A DNA stretch of 64,000 bases from Psychroserpens burtonensis DSM 12212 (GTDB lineage Bacteria > Bacteroidota > Bacteroidia > Flavobacteriales > Flavobacteriaceae): the NCBI RefSeq assembly GCF_000425305.1, contig NZ_AUDE01000018.1, forward strand, positions 1 to 64,000, in the 5' to 3' direction. The position numbers and the translations under genes were made by a program. The notes below the pieces were generated by a model. It was not told the DNA's origin, ran no database searches, and worked only from the letters and a program-made list of their open reading frames with translations. Shown here one piece after another: positions 10,372 through 64,000 of this stretch; positions within the stretch are counted from its first letter, which is position 1; the number at the start of each line of letters is the position of its first letter.

Positions 10372-10402
10372 AAAAATCTAGCTTTTATCAGCTAGATTTT
10401 TT
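10372..10402 (+). terminator. Terminator of the transketolase operon
   Basis: An 11-bp stem (AAAAATCTAGC against GCTAGATTTTT) with a short loop and a T run, directly downstream of the second transketolase gene. Confidence 0.8.
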
Positions 10403-50305: not shown

Positions 50306-50449
50306 CTACAATTTGGGGCAACGAGAACAATTAGTTTTCCCTACTTTTTTATACTTTTTACAACACTTAGACTTCTTATTTTGATCACAATAAAATACAC
50401 ATGATGTAATAATCACAGTTACATTTTCTATTGTTAAATCGTTTTGCAT
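50306..50449 (-). CDS. 47-residue cysteine-rich mini-protein beside ferritin
   Basis: ATG at 50449, TAG at 50306. Starts MQNDLTIENVTVIITSCVFY; six cysteines at 17, 21, 29, 30, 41 and 44, with a Lys-rich stretch (KKSKCCKKYKKVGKTNC) and the end CSRCPKL. The CxxxC, CC and CxxC spacing suggests metal or Fe-S binding. It lies 87 bp downstream of ferritin on the same strand, so a role in iron storage or release is plausible. Similar Lys/Cys tails are familiar to me from other flavobacteria, but no name is known. Confidence 0.6.
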   Translation of the reverse strand: MQNDLTIENVTVIITSCVFYCDQNKKSKCCKKYKKVGKTNCSRCPKL

Positions 50450-50536
50450 TATTTTAATTTATTCTAAATAAAAACAAAGTTACAAAAAAAAGATCCCTGT
50501 AGAGAGAGCATTTTTTACAAAATTATCAACAGTTGT

Positions 50537-51096: not shown

Positions 51097-51126
51097 GAAT
51101 TCAGAATCACTATAAATTAAATAATA

Positions 51127-53553
51127 TTATAATTTGATTTGAAATGTGGCATAATAATTTCTCGGAGCTGAAGGTATAATTCCAGGTCCTGGATAACCCG
51201 TTGCACGTCTTGTAAAATAGGTTTCATCAAGTAGATTATTGATTCCTGTTTCTAACTTAAAACGTTTGTAAGTGTAAGATAGAGATACATCCATAATATC
51301 ATATTGTGGTATTGCTCCAATAACTCCGCTTAAATTTGAGTCTTGAGAGTTTGTTGCATCTGTAAATTGACTAGCCAAATACGAGTATTGCACATTTGCT
51401 AACAAGTTTTTATACCCGAATCGCAACCCTGTTTTAATATTCACATCAGGAACAAATTCAACTTGATTCCCTGCAACTCCAGATTGTTGGGATTGCGTGT
51501 ATTCCGAGGAAATAAAAGACGCATTGATGAAATAATTAAAACTAAAATCATTGTCCATTTTAAGAATCTTCTTAAAATTAAAATCAACTAAAGATTCTAT
51601 ACCAAATAGTCTAGCATCACCAACATTACCACGTTCACTTATAACACGACCATCATCAAACGCTTTTTGAATAAAACCAATTCTACCGTTATAGAATAAA
51701 GCAAAAGCACCTAAGTCATAAGAAATGGTATTTTTATAATTACCTCGAAAACCGATATCTGCAGTAAAGCCTTCCTCATCTGTAATATTTGGATTCACAG
51801 CAAATGCTGGATTTAAAATATTGATATCTGAGAAGGTTACAGATCTATAATTTTGAGAGATATTTCCATAAACCTCTAAGGCAGTTGATGGCCTATAACT
51901 CAAACCAACGCCTAACAATATGAACTTACGCTCAAAATCACGGTTATCTTCTACCGTTTCCTCAAAAATAACATTGCCTGCTGCATCTGTATTAATGCGT
52001 TTGAAAAACCCTTCACTTTCGGTTTTTATATATTCAAAACGAAACCCTGGTGTGATAGAAAACGTATCATTTAAGTAAAAAATATTCTCTCCAAATACAG
52101 CTACATTTAAATTAGGAAAATCAAATTGTGATTGTGCTGGATAATTTGGGAACTCATCGTTAAATAAATTAAAGTCTGGACCGCTTCCTTCAGATCCTGG
52201 ACCTTGCTGTTCGCTATTACTCGCTTTATAAAATTTAGAGCCAATTAGGAAGGTGGCTTCTTTTCCGAAGATCTTATATTTACTCAGTAATCGTGCTTCT
52301 GCTCCAAAGTTATTAAACTCACCTTTTATTAAATCGCGTTCGCCATTGGGATCAATTTGATCTACGCGATTGGTTCTAAACCCTAGCGCGTCACGAGAAG
52401 CATTAAGCCCAAAAGCATTGAATGTAAAGTTGGTATCTTCGGAAATTTTATGACTCAACTTGAAGTTATACAACAACCAATTTACTCTAAACCAATTGCG
52501 TGCTCTATTGCTTTGCAATGGATCTTCATTAAACTGTGCATCTGTTAAACCACCAGCTTGCTGAGCGAGATAATACAAATGTGTGAACTCTGCAGAGATG
52601 TTTGTTTTCTCATTGAATTTGTAGCCCACATGTGCAAATACATTCTTAGATTCAAACTGAGAATTAGGTCTAAAGCCGTCACCTTTTTTATAATTGAAAT
52701 AGGTATAATAGCTAAACTTCCCTTTGGTACCACTAAGGCTTGTGAAGTTTGTGTATAACCCAAAACTTCCTACCGTATTTCTAGTAATAAGCTCAATGGG
52801 CTTATTTGGATTTGGAGCTTTAGTTTTGAAGTTTATGAGTCCGCCAAACTGGGTTCCGTACTGCAGCGAAGCAGCACCACGAATCACTTGAATTTCTTTT
52901 AAACCTTCGGTTGCTGGTGTATAGTAACTTTCTGGATACCCCAAAACATCTGCACTAATGTCATAACCGTTTTGTCTCGTATTAAAATTAGCTGTACGAT
53001 TGGGATCTAAACCACGACCTCCAATATTAAGTTGTAATCCTGCATCGTCATTTTGGAAAATATTTAGTCCTGCAACCTGGCTGTAAATTTGACGTGCATT
53101 ATTAGTCGCAAGATTAGCAAGTGATTGATCTACTAAAACAACTTCGGTTTTTTTACCTGCATAAATAGCAGTGCCTTCAACATCCTTTAGTCTATTAAGT
53201 TCAAAAACTTTTGCGCGTCTTACGTTGATTATAATTTCAGAAAGATTTTCCTGTAATGGCAACAAAACGACGTTTAGATTCTCATCCTTTTCAAGGGTTT
53301 GTTCTCGTTCAAGAATCTCAAATTCTGAAATATAAAATATCACAGTTAGTTCTGTTTTTTCCGAAGAAAACTCATAGTATCCTTTAGCGTCTGACGTCGT
53401 TAATAAACCAGCAGATTTCTCAAAAACTTGAACATTATTAATAACGGTATTATCAGTTCCATTAGTAATGTAACCTGAGAGTTTGTTCTGCCCAATTACA
53501 GGTAAACTGAATAGAAATATAAATAGTACTAATTTAAAATCCTTTAATGTCAT
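51127..53553 (-). CDS. TonB-dependent outer-membrane receptor (FecA-like)
   Basis: 808 residues from ATG at 53553 (MTLKDFKLVLFIFLFSLPVIGQ, a Sec signal). A carboxypeptidase-regulatory-like domain (SGYITNGTDNTVINNVQV), a plug (ARQIYSQVAGLNIFQNDDAG, LKEIQVIRGAASLQYGTQFGG) and a 22-strand barrel ending NYYATFQIKL. It probably brings in ferric chelates. It overlaps the HTTM gene by 20 bp, so the two are co-translated. A longer frame beginning at 53628 was rejected because it lacks a signal at its start. Confidence 0.92.
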   Translation of the reverse strand: MTLKDFKLVLFIFLFSLPVIGQNKLSGYITNGTDNTVINNVQVFEKSAGLLTTSDAKGYYEFSSEKTELTVIFYISEFEILEREQTLEKDENLNVVLLPLQENLSEIIINVRRAKVFELNRLKDVEGTAIYAGKKTEVVLVDQSLANLATNNARQIYSQVAGLNIFQNDDAGLQLNIGGRGLDPNRTANFNTRQNGYDISADVLGYPESYYTPATEGLKEIQVIRGAASLQYGTQFGGLINFKTKAPNPNKPIELITRNTVGSFGLYTNFTSLSGTKGKFSYYTYFNYKKGDGFRPNSQFESKNVFAHVGYKFNEKTNISAEFTHLYYLAQQAGGLTDAQFNEDPLQSNRARNWFRVNWLLYNFKLSHKISEDTNFTFNAFGLNASRDALGFRTNRVDQIDPNGERDLIKGEFNNFGAEARLLSKYKIFGKEATFLIGSKFYKASNSEQQGPGSEGSGPDFNLFNDEFPNYPAQSQFDFPNLNVAVFGENIFYLNDTFSITPGFRFEYIKTESEGFFKRINTDAAGNVIFEETVEDNRDFERKFILLGVGLSYRPSTALEVYGNISQNYRSVTFSDINILNPAFAVNPNITDEEGFTADIGFRGNYKNTISYDLGAFALFYNGRIGFIQKAFDDGRVISERGNVGDARLFGIESLVDFNFKKILKMDNDFSFNYFINASFISSEYTQSQQSGVAGNQVEFVPDVNIKTGLRFGYKNLLANVQYSYLASQFTDATNSQDSNLSGVIGAIPQYDIMDVSLSYTYKRFKLETGINNLLDETYFTRRATGYPGPGIIPSAPRNYYATFQIKL

Positions 53554-54901
53554 CTTTAAATGGTAAAATCCAATTTTTGGGTTTAAATGATTCTTTTTCT
53601 TGATATAAATCGACGGTTGGATCAACATATTGTTGGCTTAATCGTCCGTTGAGTGCGACGTAGCTATCAGCGAAAACTTGTATATTTTCGTGACCTTGAG
53701 TTTTAAAATGGTCTCCTAAAAAATGAGCATATTCTAAAATAAAGTCTGGTTGAGAGCTCATTTGCCTTTCTTGAAAGGCAGACAAGAAATCAGTATTATC
53801 AACATAGAAATACTGCCCTGATTTAGAATTAGCAATTTTAAAGGTCGTCATTCCTGCTTTTTCCATAAGCATGACTCGCCATGACAATCTATAACCTTCT
53901 TCAGTCCAAAATAATTCGTTCTTATACAATAAATACCTAAACGGAAATAGGATTTGAAATGCAAAAAAAACAGCTACGATTGGCAGTAAGATCTTTCGAC
54001 TACAAAATGGATATGTCTCTTGTAATTTTGGAGCTTTTATTATTTTTTGAAACGGTTTGATAATACGTTTAATAATCGCAATTATTTTTTCATGAACGCT
54101 GGCATCAAAAAAGATTAACGTCGCCACAATCATAATAAATGGAAACATTCCAATTGGAAATAAAATTCTCGTAAATACATGGAAAAACACAACGAGCACA
54201 AAAGCAAAAATACGGGTACGTTTATACAGTAACAAAAATGGAATAAATAAGTCGTAAAACATTCCAGACCAGCTCATCGCGTGGTGAAACCAGTCTTGTT
54301 GCATTAAATTATTACCAATTATTGGTAAATCGTATTTTGACGGTAGCCAGATTTTTAATGGCATGGCGCTAAGTAACCAATCACTATTTATTTTTGCTAT
54401 TCCGGCGTAGAAATACACAATTCCTAAAAGTAGTTTTATACTGTCTATTGTCCAATTTGGGATTTGATTAAAACGTCGCTTCCGCAGTAAATTATCTACT
54501 GAAAACTTAGCGTTTGCAGGCAAAAAGATCATCAAAAAGCTCAGGACACTAATAAAATAATAATGATTGAGATAGGTCGTTTTGTCAATGAGCTCTATGT
54601 ACGTGAAGCTTAAAAAGAATATGATGATTGAAAATCTATATTTTAGACCAAAAGCGATAAACAGTGCGGATATTCCGCAGACAAAAAATAACAGATAATT
54701 ATAATCTCCTAATGATCTCACCCATTCAAAATTATAATATTTAAAATGGAACTTAGGGGCTATGTATAGCTTTTCTATCCAACCATGGTACCAAAACCTT
54801 AGGAGACTAAAACACATCATGATCCCAAAAAGCACACGAAAAACTGCTAGAGGAGCTGCATTTGTCGTTTTATTTAGGTATTTGTTAAGTTTCGATGTCA
54901 T
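53534..54901 (-). CDS. HTTM (gamma-carboxylase-like) membrane protein
   Basis: 455 residues. Membrane helices from FRVLFGIMMCFSLLRFWYHGW to about 300 match the HTTM domain of vitamin-K-dependent gamma-carboxylase relatives (KFHFKYYNFEWV, YFYAGIAKINSDWLLSAMPL, FHVFTRILFPIGMFPFIM). A soluble C-terminal domain follows. In bacteria the role of such proteins is unknown. It lies between imelysin and the TonB receptor and overlaps the latter by 20 bp, so it likely serves the same uptake system. Confidence 0.88.
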   Translation of the reverse strand: MTSKLNKYLNKTTNAAPLAVFRVLFGIMMCFSLLRFWYHGWIEKLYIAPKFHFKYYNFEWVRSLGDYNYLLFFVCGISALFIAFGLKYRFSIIIFFLSFTYIELIDKTTYLNHYYFISVLSFLMIFLPANAKFSVDNLLRKRRFNQIPNWTIDSIKLLLGIVYFYAGIAKINSDWLLSAMPLKIWLPSKYDLPIIGNNLMQQDWFHHAMSWSGMFYDLFIPFLLLYKRTRIFAFVLVVFFHVFTRILFPIGMFPFIMIVATLIFFDASVHEKIIAIIKRIIKPFQKIIKAPKLQETYPFCSRKILLPIVAVFFAFQILFPFRYLLYKNELFWTEEGYRLSWRVMLMEKAGMTTFKIANSKSGQYFYVDNTDFLSAFQERQMSSQPDFILEYAHFLGDHFKTQGHENIQVFADSYVALNGRLSQQYVDPTVDLYQEKESFKPKNWILPFKDDIKGF

Positions 54902-55035
54902 CTAAATATTAGGTTGAGACTATTCTTAACCCAAAAGAGTGCTTTTATTGGAGCCTTAAATGGCTTGTTAAAAAGAGATTCCTTAACGATTTACACCACT
55001 AAAGAATCTTAATTATTATTTAATTTTATGCGAGA

Positions 55036-56157
55036 TTAATCTCCATCTGCATCTACAAAATCGACACTGATGTTCATTGCTTGAATCATATCCACTTTTA
55101 AAAGAACGACTGCTTTTTGTAATTCATCAAAGGCCTCTAACATTTTATTATTATCCGTTTCAACTTGTAATGAAAAATCATTACTTAACACTTGTATTTT
55201 TGATTCAGCAGTATTAAACTGATTATTGATTAAGGCACTTAAATCGTCACCTTCTTTAATTGTATTTAAATACTGTAAGTAGGAGTTAAAACTCTCTCCA
55301 GATATTGAAGCATTATAAGCTTTGCCGTTGAAAAAATCTTGAACAGCCTGTAAAGCTTCTAGCGCCAATATTTTTGAGGCATCTTTATTGTAAAAAGCTT
55401 CAACCTTATCATTAAAAGACGTTGTTGAAAACACACCTGCTGGAATCCCAAATTTATTAGCTCGCAACCCTTTCTCGTAATAGAAAATAAAGTCGTTAGT
55501 CAATTTATTTGAAGAACTAGTCGCCGTATTTGCTGAACTATTGACAAAAATATCTCTGTAATTTGATGTCCAGTCACTTAAAACTGTAGTCGTCAAAGCT
55601 TGCATTTGATTTATCAAATCTGACAAATATGACTTATGAGCTTCAAAATTTGAAACTATTGTATAGGCATCCAAAATTTCAGTATCACTATTTGATAAAC
55701 CATATAACATATAATCTACAGCTGGAAAACCAACGGCATCGTTATTATTTACGCTAGCAAGATCATAGGTTCCTGAGCTAATATTACTTTGAATATCCCT
55801 AACATTAGTAGGATAAATATTCATTTGAAAAGCATAATTAAACTCTTCTGCTTTACCAATATTAAACATTTCAACATATTGCCACGTTTTGTAGGCTTCT
55901 AGCCAAGATACTCTTATGGCATCTAAAGTAGTTTGATTTGGAGACGCCAAAAACGCATCTTTATTTGCAGATAATGTTCCTAAATCTGAACTTAAATCTT
56001 GAACAGCAGGAATAATAATATTATCTGCCCAATTCGTCAACATCGCTTGACGGTTAAAATCATCTGATGTCCCACCAGATCCTCCTGTATCGTCTGACTC
56101 TGTACAAGCCACGAACAACACGATTGTAAATAAACTTAAAACAATTTTCTTCATCAT
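55036..56157 (-). CDS. Imelysin-family lipoprotein
   Basis: 373 residues. Lipoprotein signal MMKKIVLSLFTIVLFVAC (C18) followed by a Gly/Ser linker. Imelysin-like helical domain with WLEAYKTWQYVEMFNIG and VGFPAVDYMLYGLS. The GxHxxE motif of classic imelysins is replaced at this place (PAVDYMLYG), as in IrpA-type iron-regulated proteins. It is expected to bind iron or support uptake at the cell surface. It has its own candidate promoter and sits between DUF4856 and HTTM genes. Confidence 0.88.
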   Translation of the reverse strand: MMKKIVLSLFTIVLFVACTESDDTGGSGGTSDDFNRQAMLTNWADNIIIPAVQDLSSDLGTLSANKDAFLASPNQTTLDAIRVSWLEAYKTWQYVEMFNIGKAEEFNYAFQMNIYPTNVRDIQSNISSGTYDLASVNNNDAVGFPAVDYMLYGLSNSDTEILDAYTIVSNFEAHKSYLSDLINQMQALTTTVLSDWTSNYRDIFVNSSANTATSSSNKLTNDFIFYYEKGLRANKFGIPAGVFSTTSFNDKVEAFYNKDASKILALEALQAVQDFFNGKAYNASISGESFNSYLQYLNTIKEGDDLSALINNQFNTAESKIQVLSNDFSLQVETDNNKMLEAFDELQKAVVLLKVDMIQAMNISVDFVDADGD

Positions 56158-57475: not shown

Positions 57476-57498
57476 TTATTTAGACTTAATACAAATAA
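57476..57498. promoter_or_regulatory. 23-bp motif, copy A (leader of the DUF4856 operon)
   Basis: Begins TTATTTAGA and ends AAATAA; 19 of 23 positions are identical in all three copies (57476, 57549, 63463). It lies inside the expected leader, about 12-34 bases past the start site. Confidence 0.65.
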
Positions 57499-57515
57499 CA
57501 TCTGTAATTCGATTG

Positions 57516-57546
57516 CAAAAATAAAACACATCTTTAAATTATCAAA
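57516..57546 (-). promoter_or_regulatory. Promoter of the DUF4856/imelysin group
   Basis: Minus strand: TTTG (57543-57546), 19 bp, TATTTTTG (57516-57523), a full match to the phylum consensus. Expected start near 57510. Flanked by motif copies A and B. Confidence 0.75.
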
Positions 57547-57548
57547 GC

Positions 57549-57571
57549 TTATTTAGACTAAATTTAAATAA
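57549..57571. promoter_or_regulatory. 23-bp motif, copy B (just upstream of -33)
   Basis: TTATTTAGACTAAAT then TTAAATAA. The ends TTATTTA and TAAATAA are inverted copies around a 9-base centre. Two bases upstream of the -33 TTTG of the DUF4856 promoter. Confidence 0.7.
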
Positions 57572-57949
57572 ACTTAACAAACTAAGAATAATTAATTGAA
57601 AATGTGGACTTTAAAGACTGTTAAAGTTTGAGTAAAGTTATAATTAATGAAAATGAGTAAAAATTTTAGTCGCTTCATTAAAGGCGCTCTTAAAACTCCC
57701 TTTTGCTTTTGAAACTTATAGAGGACAAGGGTTACAATACTCGTAATTTTAACAATCCAAACAAAGTGAAGTCTTGTCCACGACACCCTTTACCATGTCA
57801 TACATGATTTCAATTTCAACAAGTTTTAAATACAATTTTGCATCCCTAAAGACCAACTCTACTAAATTATTTTTATGTTTTAAGTTACTTTTCCAGAAAA
57901 AAAGAAGTACCAAAGTCGTTGTAATAGAATCTATAAATCTGTCTCATAG
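57572..57949. other. Gap without a supported gene
   Basis: On the minus strand a 64-codon frame without an ATG at its head (57749-57943) has a protein-like look, with SITTTLVLLFFWKSNL then LVELVFRDAKLYLKLVEIEI, in the same frame as the upstream DUF6686-like gene after two stops. It may be a remnant or chance. A plus-strand frame over the same bases is not convincing. Confidence 0.35.
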
Positions 57950-58297
57950 TCAATTAACTATTAGTGTATAATCTATATCTGAAACTTTTAATATTTTGGA
58001 GCCATCCGTAAATTCAAACAGATCAATCAACTCAAAAATTTCTTGTCTGTTGAACATGAGTACTAAATTGGCTTGCATTGTTGGAATTGGAATTTTTTTT
58101 TTTATTCTACCGCATGCATATTTATGTTCCCAATACTCAACTTCAATACACAATAGATAATTTTTAAAATATAAAAATTGCTCTTCTGTAAACTCAAAAT
58201 AAATATTATTGAATTCTAAATGGAAAACCTCGCATTGGCCACATAGATATAATTCTCCACTTTTTGTTTTTGATAACGTTTTTATTTTTTTACTCAT
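57950..58297 (-). CDS. DUF6686-like small cysteine protein
   Basis: 115 residues, no signal. YLCGQCEVFHLEFNNIYFEF carries a CxxC-x2-H; KNYLLCIEVEYWEHKYACGRIKKKIPIP and LVLMFNRQEIFELIDLFEF follow. I recall this pattern as DUF6686, found in flavobacterial iron-uptake clusters. Likely cytoplasmic and possibly metal-binding. The last gene of the five-gene minus operon, 10 bp after the PepSY fusion gene. Confidence 0.7.
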   Translation of the reverse strand: MSKKIKTLSKTKSGELYLCGQCEVFHLEFNNIYFEFTEEQFLYFKNYLLCIEVEYWEHKYACGRIKKKIPIPTMQANLVLMFNRQEIFELIDLFEFTDGSKILKVSDIDYTLIVN

Positions 58298-58307
58298 AAC
58301 TTACAAC

Positions 58308-60506
58308 TTAATAACAGTCCATTTTAATTTGTTCCATGTTTTCAAAGGCACTTAAAGACATCTTTAATCTGGTATTAGTGATGTTTTGCAACGTCTCTAA
58401 AACACTATTTTGCATTTCTAATGAACCACAAATCATGATGACCCCTTCATTTTTAAGATGATTAGCAATGAACTCGTCTTTTTGAGCAATTAAATCTTGC
58501 ACATAATTTTGTTCGTCCTGCTCTTGTGAATAGGCAATATTTATACTCGATATATATTTTTTATCAAAAGCTTGGTAAATAACCTTGTCATACATATCAA
58601 AGGATGCTTTTGTGCGACCACCCCAAAATAAATGAATCTTCTTTTTCTTTTTGTTATCGCTAATCATTCCTAAAAAAGGTGCTATTCCAGTACCATTTGC
58701 GATCATCACCACTTCATCAGCATATTCTGGAAAATGAAAATCATAATTTCGTTGTATTCCTGCTTTTATCATATCGTTAGCATTTATATCATTTAAATAA
58801 TTTGAGCATAACCCCTTGTCATGGGTCTTTACAGATAATAAAATATCTCCATTTAATTTTCCTATTGAATATAATCGTGCCGTTTCATCGCTGTTAATTT
58901 TAATTGACAATAAATCACCTGATTCAAATTTCACCCGCTGTTGTGGTTTAAATCGTATTAAAAAAGAACGATCCACATTCAACGCTGACCGCTCCATCAC
59001 TTTAAACGATTTACTGCTTTTTTGATCTTTTATTGAATCCCTAAACTTTACATCTAGGGCAATGGCATTACTTTCACTCCACTGTCTCACCCATAATTTA
59101 AAGGCTTCTTGAGATTGGTTATTGATTTTAAACAATGGTAATTTGGGCGTAAACTCTTTGTGTTGTTGCAATAATGCATCCACCACAATTGCGTATTTAC
59201 AATACTCAGGATACATCAATGATCCAAAACCTAGAACCGCATACTCTAATTTATTTTGAACGGTAACATCTAAATGTTTACCAAACTGTTTGGCATTGGT
59301 AGGCGCTTCGCCTTCGCCATAAGTAGCAGTAAAAATAATAAGCTGTTTAGCATTATCATAACCTGTATAACTGTTTAAATCAGAAATAAAAGCTTTTTCA
59401 CCAGCAGTAATTAGAGCCTTAAAAAACAGCGTAGCAAACGTGTAAGTTGTTCCGGTTTCTGAACCTACGAGAATTATATATTCTGCATCATCTTTCATAA
59501 TACTATTACTCACTTTTTCGTTATTTTTTAATCGTTTTAAAGTCATTGCAAAACCTGTATAAATGAAAAACAAGAGACCAATACAAACTAAAAACAATAC
59601 CACAGACCAAACTATAGTTCCGCTTCCTGTATGCAAAACAAAGCTCCATTGCGATGCCATTTGAACCATAGCGTAAGGTTGCTCACTCACAATGTCACCA
59701 GAATACTGATTGAACAATAGTTCTTTGTCTGCCAATTTGATAAAAAAGTAATCTTCGATGTCTTCGGAAAATGGAAACTCAATACTTTTTACTTCGGAAA
59801 TTTTAAGACTTCGAAACAGTTCAAATTCTGAAATTGGGGTTCTCACCACGTCAACCTCTACAACTTCTGGATAGGAATGTTTGATGTCACTTTCCGGAAG
59901 GAGATCAAATTTCTCCAAGGACAAATAAACGCCTGTAAAGGCAACAATACTTATTGGAATGAGCAGATAGCGACCAAGCAACACATGGTAATATTGCTCA
60001 AAATTCTCGTTAACCACTTTAGAAAACCAACGTGTTATCCCGCCTTGACGCTTAGCAATCAAAATAATACCTGTAATCGCCATTAGAAATAAAAAGAAGG
60101 AGACTAATCCAATAATAAAACGACCGGTAGATTTTAAAAATAAAGACCGATGCAAATTGGTTGCAAACTTAAAAACAGACGCTTTTTCAATAATATCACC
60201 TAGCTTTTCACCTGTTTCTGGATTGACATAAAACGTTTCACTCTCTCCTTCGTTTGTAAGTACCGAAGCAATAACAAATTCATTATTATCGACTTCAACA
60301 TGGAGAACCTCATCATAAGTATTAGCTAAATTGAGAATAGTGGTCGCCAACGAGACCTCATCCATAGATTCAACCTTATAATCTTGCAACTGATTAGAAA
60401 TAGGCTCAAAAGCCAAGACCATTCCTGTTAAAGACGCTAAAACAATAAAAATTGAAGATATGAGCGCCAACATTAGGTGGCTAAATCTCCAAACCGAAAT
60501 GGTCAT
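58308..60506 (-). CDS. PepSY-TM / flavodoxin / FAD-NAD(P)H reductase fusion
   Basis: 732 residues in three parts. 1-335: four membrane helices with PepSY loops (VWRFSHLMLALISSIFIVL, ANTYDEVLHVEVDNNEFV). About 350-480: flavodoxin domain (VGSETGTTYTFATLFFKAL, FTATYGEGEAPTNAK). About 500-732: reductase domain with ARLYSIGKLNG and MIANGTGIAPFLGMI for FAD and NAD(P)H. It is likely an inner-membrane reductase passing electrons from NAD(P)H across the membrane to ferric chelates in the periplasm. 8 bp after the DUF2271 gene. Confidence 0.9.
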   Translation of the reverse strand: MTISVWRFSHLMLALISSIFIVLASLTGMVLAFEPISNQLQDYKVESMDEVSLATTILNLANTYDEVLHVEVDNNEFVIASVLTNEGESETFYVNPETGEKLGDIIEKASVFKFATNLHRSLFLKSTGRFIIGLVSFFLFLMAITGIILIAKRQGGITRWFSKVVNENFEQYYHVLLGRYLLIPISIVAFTGVYLSLEKFDLLPESDIKHSYPEVVEVDVVRTPISEFELFRSLKISEVKSIEFPFSEDIEDYFFIKLADKELLFNQYSGDIVSEQPYAMVQMASQWSFVLHTGSGTIVWSVVLFLVCIGLLFFIYTGFAMTLKRLKNNEKVSNSIMKDDAEYIILVGSETGTTYTFATLFFKALITAGEKAFISDLNSYTGYDNAKQLIIFTATYGEGEAPTNAKQFGKHLDVTVQNKLEYAVLGFGSLMYPEYCKYAIVVDALLQQHKEFTPKLPLFKINNQSQEAFKLWVRQWSESNAIALDVKFRDSIKDQKSSKSFKVMERSALNVDRSFLIRFKPQQRVKFESGDLLSIKINSDETARLYSIGKLNGDILLSVKTHDKGLCSNYLNDINANDMIKAGIQRNYDFHFPEYADEVVMIANGTGIAPFLGMISDNKKKKKIHLFWGGRTKASFDMYDKVIYQAFDKKYISSINIAYSQEQDEQNYVQDLIAQKDEFIANHLKNEGVIMICGSLEMQNSVLETLQNITNTRLKMSLSAFENMEQIKMDCY

Positions 60507-60514
60507 ACTATAGG

Positions 60515-61012
60515 CTATTTTTGGGGCATCATTCTTATGTAACGAATAAATCCGTCACCTTCTGTTTTTCCTTTAACGTTATCTGTTGTGAGTTCAAATT
60601 CTACATCATCTTTGTAATATTCCTGGTCCTCAACAGCAGATTCAAATCTAATTGTATAGCCTTTATCAAGCTTATCATCCTCAATGTCTATGACGCTAAT
60701 CGCACGTTCGCCACCACTAATGGTTGCTCCTGTAATAGCGTCTAGATTAGTGCGACGTTTTCCGTAGAAATCCCACCAATCTGTAATATCAAAATACCAC
60801 TCATCATCATCACCTTGAACATATAAAGTCTTTTCGTATTCACCTTCAGTATTCAATAAAGAAATGACGATGTAAGCACCTTCTCCTGTATAATTCGTCA
60901 TTTGAATCATGCATTTATAATGCGACTCTTTTGGTTTAAACGAGAATCCAAAACCTATAAAAGCGCTCACTAGTAGTATTGGTATTAGTTTAAAATATCG
61001 TTTTATCATCAT
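60515..61012 (-). CDS. DUF2271-family periplasmic protein
   Basis: 165 residues with an N-terminal hydrophobic signal (FKLIPILLVSAFIGFGFSF). YKCMIQMTNYTGEGAYIVIS, DITDWWDFYG and LDAITGATISGG match DUF2271; the DAITGATISGG segment recalls flavin-attachment-type sequences (D-x-T/S-GAT-S/T). It probably takes part in electron transfer or metal reduction with the adjacent reductase, 3 bp after the ankyrin gene. Confidence 0.82.
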   Translation of the reverse strand: MMIKRYFKLIPILLVSAFIGFGFSFKPKESHYKCMIQMTNYTGEGAYIVISLLNTEGEYEKTLYVQGDDDEWYFDITDWWDFYGKRRTNLDAITGATISGGERAISVIDIEDDKLDKGYTIRFESAVEDQEYYKDDVEFELTTDNVKGKTEGDGFIRYIRMMPQK

Positions 61013-61015
61013 CTA

Positions 61016-62515
61016 TTATTTTAAAAAATTAATATCAATATTACGTTGTTGCAACAACTCATTTTCGTTTGCTAAATCGTAGACAGACTCATCAAAATCG
61101 GTCATGACTGTTTTGTCTGCGCCTTTCCCAATCAAGTATTTCAAAATATCTTGGTGTTTAGCTTTCATGGCTGCAATTTGAAGTACAGTAAATCCGTTTG
61201 TGTTTTTTGCATTGATATCAATATCAAAGGTTTCAAGACGTTTTAATAACTCAAGATTACTACGTTCAGTGGCGATATGTAATAAGGTATTACCATTATT
61301 TTGAGTTTGGTTGATGACCAACCCGTTAGATTTCAGTAAGCTCAACTTATCTTCAAATGCTTTGGTATTATTAACCTGGAAATTATTCAGTAGATAATAA
61401 GACAGGGTATTTTCTTCATTGTCAACGGTGTTTATATCCGCTTGCTTTTTTAGAAGAAAATCTATGATGTCAACATCATTACGATTGACAGCCATCACTA
61501 GCGCTGATTGACCATTTTCATCTTTAGCATTAATATCCTTGACATAAGAGTATAGAAACTTCACAACAGGTAACGTATTACTATTGGCTGCGTTCATAAA
61601 AGGAGAATTACCTCCATTATCTTGCAAATTGGAATCAACACCATGTTTGATAAAAAATCGATAGATTTCTAGATCCTCACTATTATAAGAAATGGCATGC
61701 AACGGGTTTCTTCCGTTTTCACCAATGACATTGGCAGCAATACCTTTTTCTTCCAAAAACATATAGGTACCAAGATTGGTTTTGCCTCCACGAGAACCTT
61801 GACTAGCAAATAGCATGGCATTACCTCCATTTTTATTCAAACCTTTATGCGAAATCCCCTTTTCAATAAGCCTATCAAGCATTTTGGTGTTACCTCCTTT
61901 TGCAGCATAATTAAAAATCCCGTTGCCAAAATTATCTGTAGTATTTAAGTCAATACCGTTAGATGTAAAATACTCTACCAATTTAAAGTCATTCAAAGAC
62001 GATGCAACCAATAATAACGCATTGGCACCATCATGATTTTTTTCTTCGGAAAACTGGGCACCATGTTTCACTAAAAACTCATATAACTCAATATACTGAA
62101 CACCAGATCTTGCTGCAAAACTTGCAACAGAATACCCGTGACTATCAATAATATCTGTCTTTGCACCTTGGCTCACCAAATAGGCCATCATCTCTAGATT
62201 ACCTTTGTAAGCTGCCCAGAAAATAAAGGTTCTCCCATCGTGAGTTAGTTTATTCACGTCGTTCCGTGGTTGCTTCAAAAGATATTTTATCGTTTTATTA
62301 TCCACGTTTTCAATAAGTGCATAAGACATCGCATCAAAAGCATTGTTATTTAATTGGGCTGGATTATTTCCTAACTTAATCTTTTTCTTTACGATAGAAA
62401 CTGACGGATTGGTCTTCCAAAACTCACGATTTAAAAACACATTCGATTCTTGAGCAAAAAAAGGAGTGAAAATGGTTAGGATTAATACTGTTGTAATTAA
62501 TTTGAACGTTCTCAT
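61016..62515 (-). CDS. Exported ankyrin-repeat protein
   Basis: 499 residues. Sec signal MRTFKLITTVLILTIFTPFFA, then about eleven to twelve ankyrin repeats from about 60 to 495 (for example DGRTFIFWAAYKGNLEMMAY, NGQSALVMAVNRNDVDIIDF, NGFTVLQIAAMKAKHQDIL). A periplasmic ankyrin scaffold in an iron-type operon is unusual; a protein-binding role is inferred. 3 bp after the DUF6607 gene. Confidence 0.92.
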   Translation of the reverse strand: MRTFKLITTVLILTIFTPFFAQESNVFLNREFWKTNPSVSIVKKKIKLGNNPAQLNNNAFDAMSYALIENVDNKTIKYLLKQPRNDVNKLTHDGRTFIFWAAYKGNLEMMAYLVSQGAKTDIIDSHGYSVASFAARSGVQYIELYEFLVKHGAQFSEEKNHDGANALLLVASSLNDFKLVEYFTSNGIDLNTTDNFGNGIFNYAAKGGNTKMLDRLIEKGISHKGLNKNGGNAMLFASQGSRGGKTNLGTYMFLEEKGIAANVIGENGRNPLHAISYNSEDLEIYRFFIKHGVDSNLQDNGGNSPFMNAANSNTLPVVKFLYSYVKDINAKDENGQSALVMAVNRNDVDIIDFLLKKQADINTVDNEENTLSYYLLNNFQVNNTKAFEDKLSLLKSNGLVINQTQNNGNTLLHIATERSNLELLKRLETFDIDINAKNTNGFTVLQIAAMKAKHQDILKYLIGKGADKTVMTDFDESVYDLANENELLQQRNIDINFLK

Positions 62516-62518
62516 GAT

Positions 62519-63424
62519 CTATTTTTTTACAAATGATTCAATAGTGGAGTTTATATCACTTTCTTTGGTCATCTCATTATCAAATAAAAACTTGTATAAC
62601 ACTTTATTGTCTACTTTTTCTTCTAGAACTAAGTTTTGATGTCTACCATAAACCTCATTCCATTTAGCTCTAACCATAGCCCATTTATCTTGGTGTTCTT
62701 GCCACCAATCTATAGCACCTTGACATGTGCTATCGTCTACTTTTTTATAAGTATTATGACCTTTTTCATCTGCTATTATAACATCAACCTGACCATCTGC
62801 TCTTACAATTTTAGCATTATCTTGATCATGAACCCAACCCCCTTTTGTGATCTCCTGACGATTCCCTCTTAGTGTGATATTGTAATCATTACGCTTGGTA
62901 TATTCTCGTCGTGGTAATGGCGCAGGTGTTGTATTTTCCCAGTAACTTTTCCCATCGACATGAACCCAAGTTGCTGAGCCTTCATAACGCGGACTATCAT
63001 CCACCTGAAACACTTTTTGTGTCCATTGCCCTGTCACAGCATCATTAGACCTCTTCTCAAAATCCCAATTATTATCGCCATTATACATGTAGAGATTTGT
63101 GTTTTCAAACAACCAATCTTGTCTCCAATGCTTCACGATATATGGATTATCTGGCTTACCAACTTGCAATAAATGCTGGATAGACACTTTGTTATCTTCA
63201 TCTTGGACTAATTGAGCCCACTCCAAAGCATAATCTATTTTTTTTTCTGAAGGTTGATATACAGAATCTTTACTATAAGAAAATGTCTCAGTAAAATTAA
63301 AGGTGACTTCAAAGCAACCACACATAGATTTAATGGCTTCTTGGTCTAATTGTTTTTTGTTTTGTGCATTTATAACGAGAGAAAACGCTAAAAATAATAC
63401 TGGTAAGATGATTGCTTTTTTCAT
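62519..63424 (-). CDS. DUF6607-family exported protein
   Basis: 301 residues. Sec signal MKKAIILPVLFLAFSLVINAQ. IKSMCGCFEVTFNFTETFSY holds a CxC; YIVKHWRQDWLFENTNLYMY and DSTCQGAIDWWQEHQDKW follow. I recall this pattern as DUF6607. Function unknown. The first gene of the five-gene minus operon, divergent from a TonB receptor gene; the 91-bp space between them holds one 23-bp motif. Confidence 0.82.
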   Translation of the reverse strand: MKKAIILPVLFLAFSLVINAQNKKQLDQEAIKSMCGCFEVTFNFTETFSYSKDSVYQPSEKKIDYALEWAQLVQDEDNKVSIQHLLQVGKPDNPYIVKHWRQDWLFENTNLYMYNGDNNWDFEKRSNDAVTGQWTQKVFQVDDSPRYEGSATWVHVDGKSYWENTTPAPLPRREYTKRNDYNITLRGNRQEITKGGWVHDQDNAKIVRADGQVDVIIADEKGHNTYKKVDDSTCQGAIDWWQEHQDKWAMVRAKWNEVYGRHQNLVLEEKVDNKVLYKFLFDNEMTKESDINSTIESFVKK

Positions 63425-63462
63425 AATTGTTAAAATTTAAGTCTTTCGAAAAAACTCTATTC

Positions 63463-63485
63463 TTATTTAGATTAAATTAAAATAA
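63463..63485. promoter_or_regulatory. 23-bp motif, copy C (shared divergent operator)
   Basis: TTATTTAGATTAAAT then TAAAATAA, 38 bp before the DUF6607 ATG and overlapping the -33/spacer region of the plus-strand promoter. A half-copy TTATTTAGATT also sits on the minus strand over the receptor start (63519-63529). Confidence 0.7.
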
Positions 63486-63489
63486 CTTT

Positions 63490-63497
63490 TATATTTG
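63490..63497 (+). promoter_or_regulatory. -7 element of the TonB receptor gene
   Basis: TATATTTG matches TAnnTTTG; start expected near 63503, ATG at 63516. Motif C covers the upstream half of the promoter. Confidence 0.6.
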
Positions 63498-63515
63498 CGG
63501 TAAATTTAATCAAGA

Positions 63516-64000
63516 ATGAATCTAAATAACAAATATTTCTTACTTTATTTTACACTTTTTTTTAGTGCGCTTTCTCTAGCTCAAGAAACACAAGAGACTG
63601 CTAAAGATTCTGTAAAAGTTGAAAAACTAAAAGAAGTGGTTGTTACTGGGCAGATAAATCCTCAATCTGTTGAGAAATCTGTTTTTGAGGTAAAAGTGAT
63701 TGACAGAAGAGAAATCGAAAAACGCGCTGGTGTCAATTTAGCAGACTTACTTAATCAAACTTTAAATATAAATATAGTTCCTAACCTAGGAAATGGAAGA
63801 TCTGAAGTATCACTATTTGGCTTGAACGGTCAATACTTCAAAATCTTGATTGATAATGTGCCACTTATAAACGAAGGTGGTTTTGGTAATGGTGCTGATT
63901 TAACTCTCATAAATTTAGACGATGTAGAGCGTATATAAATCGTAGAAGGTGCCATGGGAGTCCAATATGGATCTAATGCGGTTACTGGTATTATTAATAT
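63516..64000 (+). pseudogene. TonB-dependent receptor with a nonsense codon, cut by window edge
   Basis: Sec signal ending FFSALSLAQ and a plug domain: VEKLKEVVVTGQINPQSVEK, GVNLADLLNQTLNINIVPNL and FKILIDNVPLINEGGFGN. TAA at 63936-63938 (codon 141) sits where relatives have Glu or Gln, in VERI-stop-IVEGAMGVQYGSNAV; the same frame continues intact to the window end. A single GAA to TAA change would explain it. A sequencing error is also possible. Divergent from the DUF6607 operon, its likely partner. Confidence 0.8.

Follow-up and report, generated by a model that had tools for sequence, protein, structure and literature searches.

What reads the short AT-rich motif that recurs beside two sets of iron-type uptake genes in Psychroserpens burtonensis DSM 12212 (Flavobacteriaceae)? 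The question arises from positions 1 to 64,000 of contig NZ_AUDE01000018.1 (the 64,000-nt stretch analysed here, hereafter the window), in which a sequence-only reading had reported three 23-bp copies of an AT-rich "half-palindrome", described it as matching no named box and proposed that it is the site of a Fur- or DtxR-like metal-responsive repressor. The copies lie where they were reported (57476-57498, 57549-57571 and 63463-63485), with identical columns at 19 of 23 positions. As had also been described, the sequence reads as a TTTG-N19-TATTTTTG promoter (57516-57546, minus strand) between the first two copies, and the third copy is at the divergent promoter of the DUF6607 gene and a TonB-dependent receptor; there it covers the -33 region on the receptor side. 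Our analysis indicates that the motif is very probably an operator of Fur, the ferric uptake regulator; binding and metal dependence are carried over by analogy from the duck pathogen Riemerella anatipestifer.

The repeated AT-rich motif is real, but it is a whole, degenerate palindrome and not half of one. As an asymmetric 23-bp pattern it was rejected as unspecific, with 209 matches at up to two mismatches in the P. burtonensis genome and 170 for the reversed control. The palindrome TTATTTAGATTnAATCTAAATAA, at up to three mismatches, occurs at five places in the 3.98 Mb genome and at none in the control; four of these are in the window and the fifth lies 2 nt before feoA, directly after a TATTTTTG -7 element. 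Freeing positions 10 and 14 as well gives 11 places in the genome and one in the control. Five of the 11 are in the window and one is inside a coding open reading frame (ORF); the rest lie at feoA, a divergent AraC/hemA promoter, mrp-nfu, nqrA and sdhC (feoA, hemA, mrp, nfu, nqrA and sdhC were named by eye from their translations). Matches to the palindrome are thus few, and mostly before iron, haem or Fe-S genes, rather than spread at random. In full the palindrome spans 23 bp, TTATTTAGAnTnAnTCTAAATAA, and its central 19 bp equal the published Fur box of R. anatipestifer.

When the window is scanned with that published box (16 fixed positions, up to two mismatches), six sites are found, at 50451, 51099, 57478, 57551, 63465 and 63509, against a mean of 0.17 and a maximum of 1 in 30 dinucleotide shuffles of the window. 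The earlier count of three copies was therefore correct but incomplete, with sites at 50449-50471 (minus strand), 63507-63529 and 51099-51117 also present. The targets are the DUF4856 gene (two sites), the DUF6607/TonB-receptor divergent promoter (two sites), a ferritin gene and a previously unlisted 47-aa Cys-rich ORF. The sites precede genes for iron uptake or storage, and the earlier proposal, that iron genes here are preceded by the site of a metal-responsive repressor, was the right one. Two further sites with three mismatches (22243 and 31086) are at chance level: eight sites at up to three mismatches, including the six above, compare with a shuffle mean of 2.6.

The R. anatipestifer box, 5'-ATTTAGAATTATTCTAAAT-3', was derived with RegPredict and ClustalW, and electrophoretic mobility shift assays (EMSAs) were performed on four promoters (PMC5609570); the rhuB promoter of the same species, which contains ATTTAGAATTATCCTAAAT, is bound by Fur in a Mn-dependent manner with a Kd of 4.3 nM (PMC10986502). 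This consensus agrees with the palindrome core at 16 of 16 fixed positions, the window sites depart from it by one or two mismatches, and TonB receptors are among the targets in both species. The Psychroserpens palindrome differs in being two bases longer on either side and in its additional targets (DUF4856, DUF6607, ferritin/Cys-rich gene, AraC/hemA and Fe-S genes). The motif does, then, match a named box, though not that of Escherichia coli, GATAATGATAATCATTATC (PMC5609570, PMC7976709), which is likewise a 19-bp AT-rich palindrome bound by Fur but, by visual count, agrees with the Riemerella box at 8 of 19 positions; the box found here is thus of the Riemerella form and not of the E. coli form. 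Another R. anatipestifer paper gives the E. coli sequence as the Fur box (PMC7976709), PgFur of Porphyromonas gingivalis reportedly does not bind the E. coli box (PMC6613475), and in Flavobacterium columnare a deletion of fur was not obtained (PMC9618737). Among the papers listed in our literature searches on Bacteroidetes Fur and DtxR motifs we saw no Bacteroidota Fur box besides that of Riemerella, and a separate search of the literature available to us found no paper naming DUF4856 or DUF6607.

The boxes before the two DUF genes are conserved. Among 60 Flavobacteriaceae genomes, 20 encode DUF6607 (20 genes) and 21 encode DUF4856 (22 genes), P. burtonensis included, and a box with at most two mismatches occurs within 250 bp upstream of 19 of the 20 DUF6607 genes and 19 of the 22 DUF4856 genes, whereas 0.24% of 840 shuffled upstream regions reach this threshold. 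The single DUF6607 gene lacking such a box has a best site with six mismatches (locus L192), and the three DUF4856 genes have best sites with three, four and five (L208, L220 and L221, respectively). In 13 of 20 DUF6607 promoters the best site is 84-99 nt before the gene, which is the place of 63507-63529 (84 nt here); the site most often kept before DUF6607 is thus one that the sequence-only reading had missed. Both sites of the DUF6607 promoter pair are present in a genome of the same genus (L183).

The palindrome also extends well beyond this family. A scan of one genome per species for exact matches (20 fixed positions) met at least 119 stretches, and of the 80 titles listed, 74 name genera that we take to belong to Bacteroidota, Balneolaceae or Ignavibacteria, four name other bacteria (Streptococcus, Shewanella and two Clostridia/Clostridiales) and two are unspecified. 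Four of the 119 listed sites were flagged inside ORFs. Within 350 bp of these sites we found the starts of 124 neighbouring proteins, or 122 after exclusion of two longer than 1100 aa, and the best 25 of their 102 Pfam families include TonB plug (19), SBP families (8), SufBD (6), DUF4856 (5), Fe-S_biosyn (5), FeoB (4), and Fur, NqrA, DnaA and HTH_18 (3 each). As a control we took 111 genes of the same loci that lie over 1.2 kb from the site. Here the best 25 of 123 families contain no TonB plug; ABC_tran is the commonest (5), and imelysin and HmuY (3 each) and SufBD (1) are also present. This control is conservative because operons reach into it. In four loci a FeoA frame, recognized by eye, begins 5-10 nt after the box.

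Three groups of sites deserve separate mention. The box in the divergent promoter of an AraC-type regulator gene and hemA occurs in four genomes (G000:C1:184762-184784, L083, L140 and L154), and its target may be either gene or both. Proteins of 114-119 aa, one of which starts MQQDIYKLYNNSFGIAF, are encoded about 40 nt behind exact boxes in Tamlana, Flavobacterium and Tenacibaculum (L049, L050 and L059) and are perhaps iron-regulated. Lastly, three loci of Bacteroidales, two of Dysgonomonas and one of another member of the order (L055, L068 and L109), have an exact box whose centre is 286-331 bp before dnaA. The P. gingivalis protein Har/PgFur is reported to bind the dnaA promoter, which resembles this arrangement, but Har is a haemin-binding protein without the usual sensory site (PMC4222909). 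An iron link to the start of replication is possible.

Across genomes, the presence of the palindrome follows that of Fur. In 247 genomes of the phylum searched alike for the palindrome (up to one mismatch), Fur and DtxR, the palindrome is present in 95, all among the 219 that bear Fur and none among the 28 that lack it (p = 5e-7; this and the following p values are only a guide because the sampled genomes are related). When the family holding 19 of the 28 Fur-less genomes is set aside, the figures are 94 of 184 and none of 9 (p = 0.003). P. burtonensis itself has a single PF01475 (Fur) gene, in whose product His, Glu, HDH and His positions, which we take to be the sensory metal ligands, align with those of Magnetospirillum Fur 4raz, among the best-matching solved proteins. 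Exact boxes precede fur in loci of three other genomes (L042, L113 and L127).

Several observations weigh against Fur as the protein that binds these sites. The fur gene of P. burtonensis has no site at up to three mismatches, so autoregulation is suggested only by the other genomes; its product lacks the CxxC (zinc) motif found in three other aligned Fur proteins and reaches none of the NCBIfam equivalog cut-offs. Of the 11 sites in the genome, one is inside a coding ORF. In the published work, several of the 11 listed boxes are poor fits to the paper's consensus, and entire promoter fragments served as EMSA probes (PMC5609570). At the strict threshold of one mismatch, no site is present in 124 of the 219 genomes with Fur, and a diverged box may be in use in many Bacteroidota. 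One family of the phylum (f17, 54 genomes), in which 19 genomes lack Fur, 45 lack DtxR and a single one has the palindrome at up to one mismatch, must regulate iron otherwise or by such a diverged box. Finally, the palindrome is found in 86 of 172 genomes with DtxR and 9 of 75 without (p = 6e-9), or in 85 of 163 and 9 of 30 when the family holding most of the Fur-less genomes is again set aside (p = 0.03).

This last correlation is one of the points in favour of a different binder, the DtxR/MntR-family protein encoded beside feoAB (C1:209930-210136). Its gene adjoins feoB, whose operon carries a box, its domains are those of a family that senses iron or manganese (the best NCBIfam model is MntR, below cut-off), and DtxR-type half-sites contain TTAG. 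Yet the nine DtxR-less carriers of the palindrome, from seven families, all have Fur, indicating that DtxR is correlated with the palindrome but not needed for it, and we read the correlation as arising through shared ancestry. The dtxR promoter, moreover, has an exact palindrome of its own, TTTTTAGACAAGTCTAAAAA, with a different spacing of half-sites and no other exact copy in the genome; Fur, and not PF02742, is among the best 25 of the 102 families of exact-box neighbours; and the published binder of the palindrome core is Fur (PMC5609570, PMC10986502). On the grounds of co-occurrence and of its own different palindrome we rejected DtxR, which we regard as a very improbable binder, such that of the proposed "Fur- or DtxR-like" repressor the Fur part stands, on the published core and the co-occurrence, and the DtxR part does not. 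We regard as equally improbable the idea that in other species the box is bound by a Fur-family paralogue (PerR- or Zur-like) and is an operator shared within that family. PerR models also score against the P. burtonensis Fur, below cut-off as the Fur models do, and many genomes of the phylum have 2-4 Fur-family genes (one has 6), but the PF01475 gene of P. burtonensis is the only one in its genome and its best solved relatives are Fur proteins. That the motif is AT-rich DNA between genes which recurs by chance or comes as a by-product of promoters would fit the asymmetric pattern, which hardly exceeds its control genome-wide; in our view it is already refuted, its probability being negligible, by the five places of the palindrome with none in the control, by its presence before 19 of 20 and 19 of 22 orthologous genes against a null of 0.24%, and by the excess in the window (6 vs 0.17).

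The TTTTTAGACAAGTCTAAAAA palindrome is itself of interest. It lies at 10378-10397 of locus L031 (G000:C1:210377-210396), between the DtxR/MntR-family gene, which has an FeoA domain, and a divergent TonB receptor gene that is followed by genes for a Trx-like protein and a ZnuA-type metal-binding protein. At up to three mismatches its pattern is little above control (22 vs 14). It has the TTTAGA half in common with the Fur box and is probably an operator of the manganese type.

One of the sites overlooked before belongs to a small gene. The 47-aa Cys-rich ORF (50306-50449, minus strand) lies between the genes for ferritin (PF00210; 50537-51040, minus strand) and guaB, and its box (50449-50471, minus strand) is located just 3' of a TAACTTTG -7 element and ends on the ATG. 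Relatives of the ORF occur in 16 of 120 Flavobacteriaceae genomes, P. burtonensis included; the only same-genus genome of the set (G289) has none at E <= 0.001. Fourteen of the 16 match the Cys core KCCKKYKKKGKxNCKxCPK (CC-x10-C-x2-C-P; L176 and L177 do not), and these 14 genes were the ones examined for boxes. A box with at most three mismatches was found within 400 nt in 12 of the 14 (none in L172 or L175) and within 18 nt of the ATG in 10, while 2.4% of shuffled 260-nt upstream regions reach the same threshold. A TAnnTTTG element precedes the 19-bp box in 10 of the 14 promoters, among them that of P. burtonensis, with 5-9 nt between the two. Ferritin adjoins the small gene in 12 of the 16 loci, and the scan for exact boxes, which was blind to the small protein, also met such an ORF 8 nt behind a box (L095). 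The protein matches no NCBIfam family, and none of Pfam above cut-off. These data suggest that the small Cys-rich gene is real and Fur-controlled, which we consider likely. A reading of the stretch between ferritin and guaB as an RNA element was rejected, with no Rfam match at gathering scores and an unremarkable fold upstream of the small ORF (z -1.0); a conserved protein frame is the better explanation. Between 50200 and 51200 a sigma-70 scan gave 10 promoters (shuffle mean 6.5, sd 2.7) and a terminator scan found none.

Ferritin carries a weaker box of its own (51099-51117, minus strand, two mismatches), 58 nt 5' of the ATG, and a site at 58-75 nt with up to three mismatches is present in 7 of 11 readable loci, P. 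burtonensis included. We dropped the notion that this box marks activation, as the distance resembles that of the boxes before DUF4856 and DUF6607. Bacterioferritin-associated ferredoxin (Bfd) is a small four-cysteine protein whose gene lies beside an iron-storage gene and which is made in iron scarcity. In the Flavobacteriaceae, a Fur-repressed four-cysteine microprotein encoded behind ferritin could conceivably be the counterpart of Bfd, freeing ferritin iron when iron is scarce, but such a role is guessed from where the gene lies, its box and its cysteines, and we hold it to be rather unlikely. The arrangement resembles bfr-bfd in placing the gene of a small four-cysteine protein beside one for iron storage, and differs in that the 47-aa protein has no family match, its cysteines are spaced CC-x10-C-x2-C, and its partner is a ferritin family protein. 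Our search of the literature on Bfd-like small proteins in flavobacteria found nothing relevant among the papers listed.

The gene identities around the two larger loci are as the sequence-only reading gave them. The DUF4856 gene (PF16148; 56256-57455, minus strand) is the first behind box 1 (57476-57498, plus strand), which lies 3' of the -7 element, at the transcript start or leader, with two mismatches to the published box, and box 2 (57549-57571, plus strand), which lies 2 nt from the -33 element with one mismatch and is the best match of the genome in the relaxed palindrome scan. Genes for imelysin (PF09375), an HTTM/VKGC-like protein (PF05090) and a TonB-dependent receptor follow in the same direction (51127-56157, minus strand). 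The DUF6607 gene (PF20311; 62519-63424, minus strand) is the first of the leftward genes of the second locus and presumably forms one operon with the co-directional genes behind it (57950-62515, minus strand), which encode ankyrin repeats, DUF2271, a PepSY-TM/flavodoxin reductase and DUF6686. The box at 63463-63485 (plus strand) lies 38 nt 5' of its start; the -7 element of the receptor promoter, TATATTTG, is at 63490-63497, and the second box (63507-63529, plus strand) overlaps the receptor start codon (63516). The 5' part of the receptor gene spans 63516-63938 (plus strand), and two HmuY-family genes come next, outside the window, such that the locus looks like what we take to be the HmuR/HmuY type, for haem or iron. 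An in-frame TAA at 63936-63938 (plus strand) interrupts the receptor at codon 141, in the plug region, with the frame continuing beyond; in the genome of the same genus (L183) this part of the gene is uninterrupted, and the stop is either a nonsense change or an assembly error.

From established Fur behaviour and the positions of the boxes we infer how repression would work. When iron is replete, metal-loaded Fur would bind TTATTTAGAnTnAnTCTAAATAA and exclude RNA polymerase by covering the -33 region, the transcription start or the start codon. The boxes at 57549-57571 and 63463-63485 are on or beside the -33 element, those at 57476-57498, feoA and the 47-aa gene are at or after the transcript start, and that at 63507-63529 is on the start codon. 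The pair around the DUF4856 promoter could permit two dimers to act jointly. When iron is scarce, Fur would release the DNA and five sets of genes would be expressed: DUF4856 and its followers, DUF6607 together with the PepSY reductase, the receptor and its two HmuY-family neighbours, feoA, and the gene of the 47-aa Cys-rich protein. The cleanest geometry is that of the small gene, where the TAnnTTTG element 5-9 nt before the box implies that the box would cover the expected transcription start, as in simple occlusion. Across 139 oriented promoters with exact boxes, TAnnTTTG ends no more than 12 nt upstream of the box in 13 (mean of shuffled upstream regions 1.4, maximum 5; antisense 11) and ends 23-50 nt after the first base of the box in 26 (antisense 12), a test that lends weak support because the antisense control overlaps divergent promoters.

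The box itself is already known, having been published in one flavobacterium, R. anatipestifer. As far as our searches show, its spread through the phylum, DUF4856 and DUF6607 as its targets, and the small Cys-rich gene are new. An unnamed AT-rich motif becomes a usable rule, namely that in much of Bacteroidota the Fur operator would be TTATTTAGAnTnAnTCTAAATAA, and iron regulons could then be read from Bacteroidota genomes; for this phylum at least one paper still cites the E. coli box as the guide (PMC7976709). Judged by their promoters, two uncharacterised families, DUF4856 and DUF6607, would be placed in the iron response, and an overlooked small gene beside ferritin, probably iron-regulated, is exposed.

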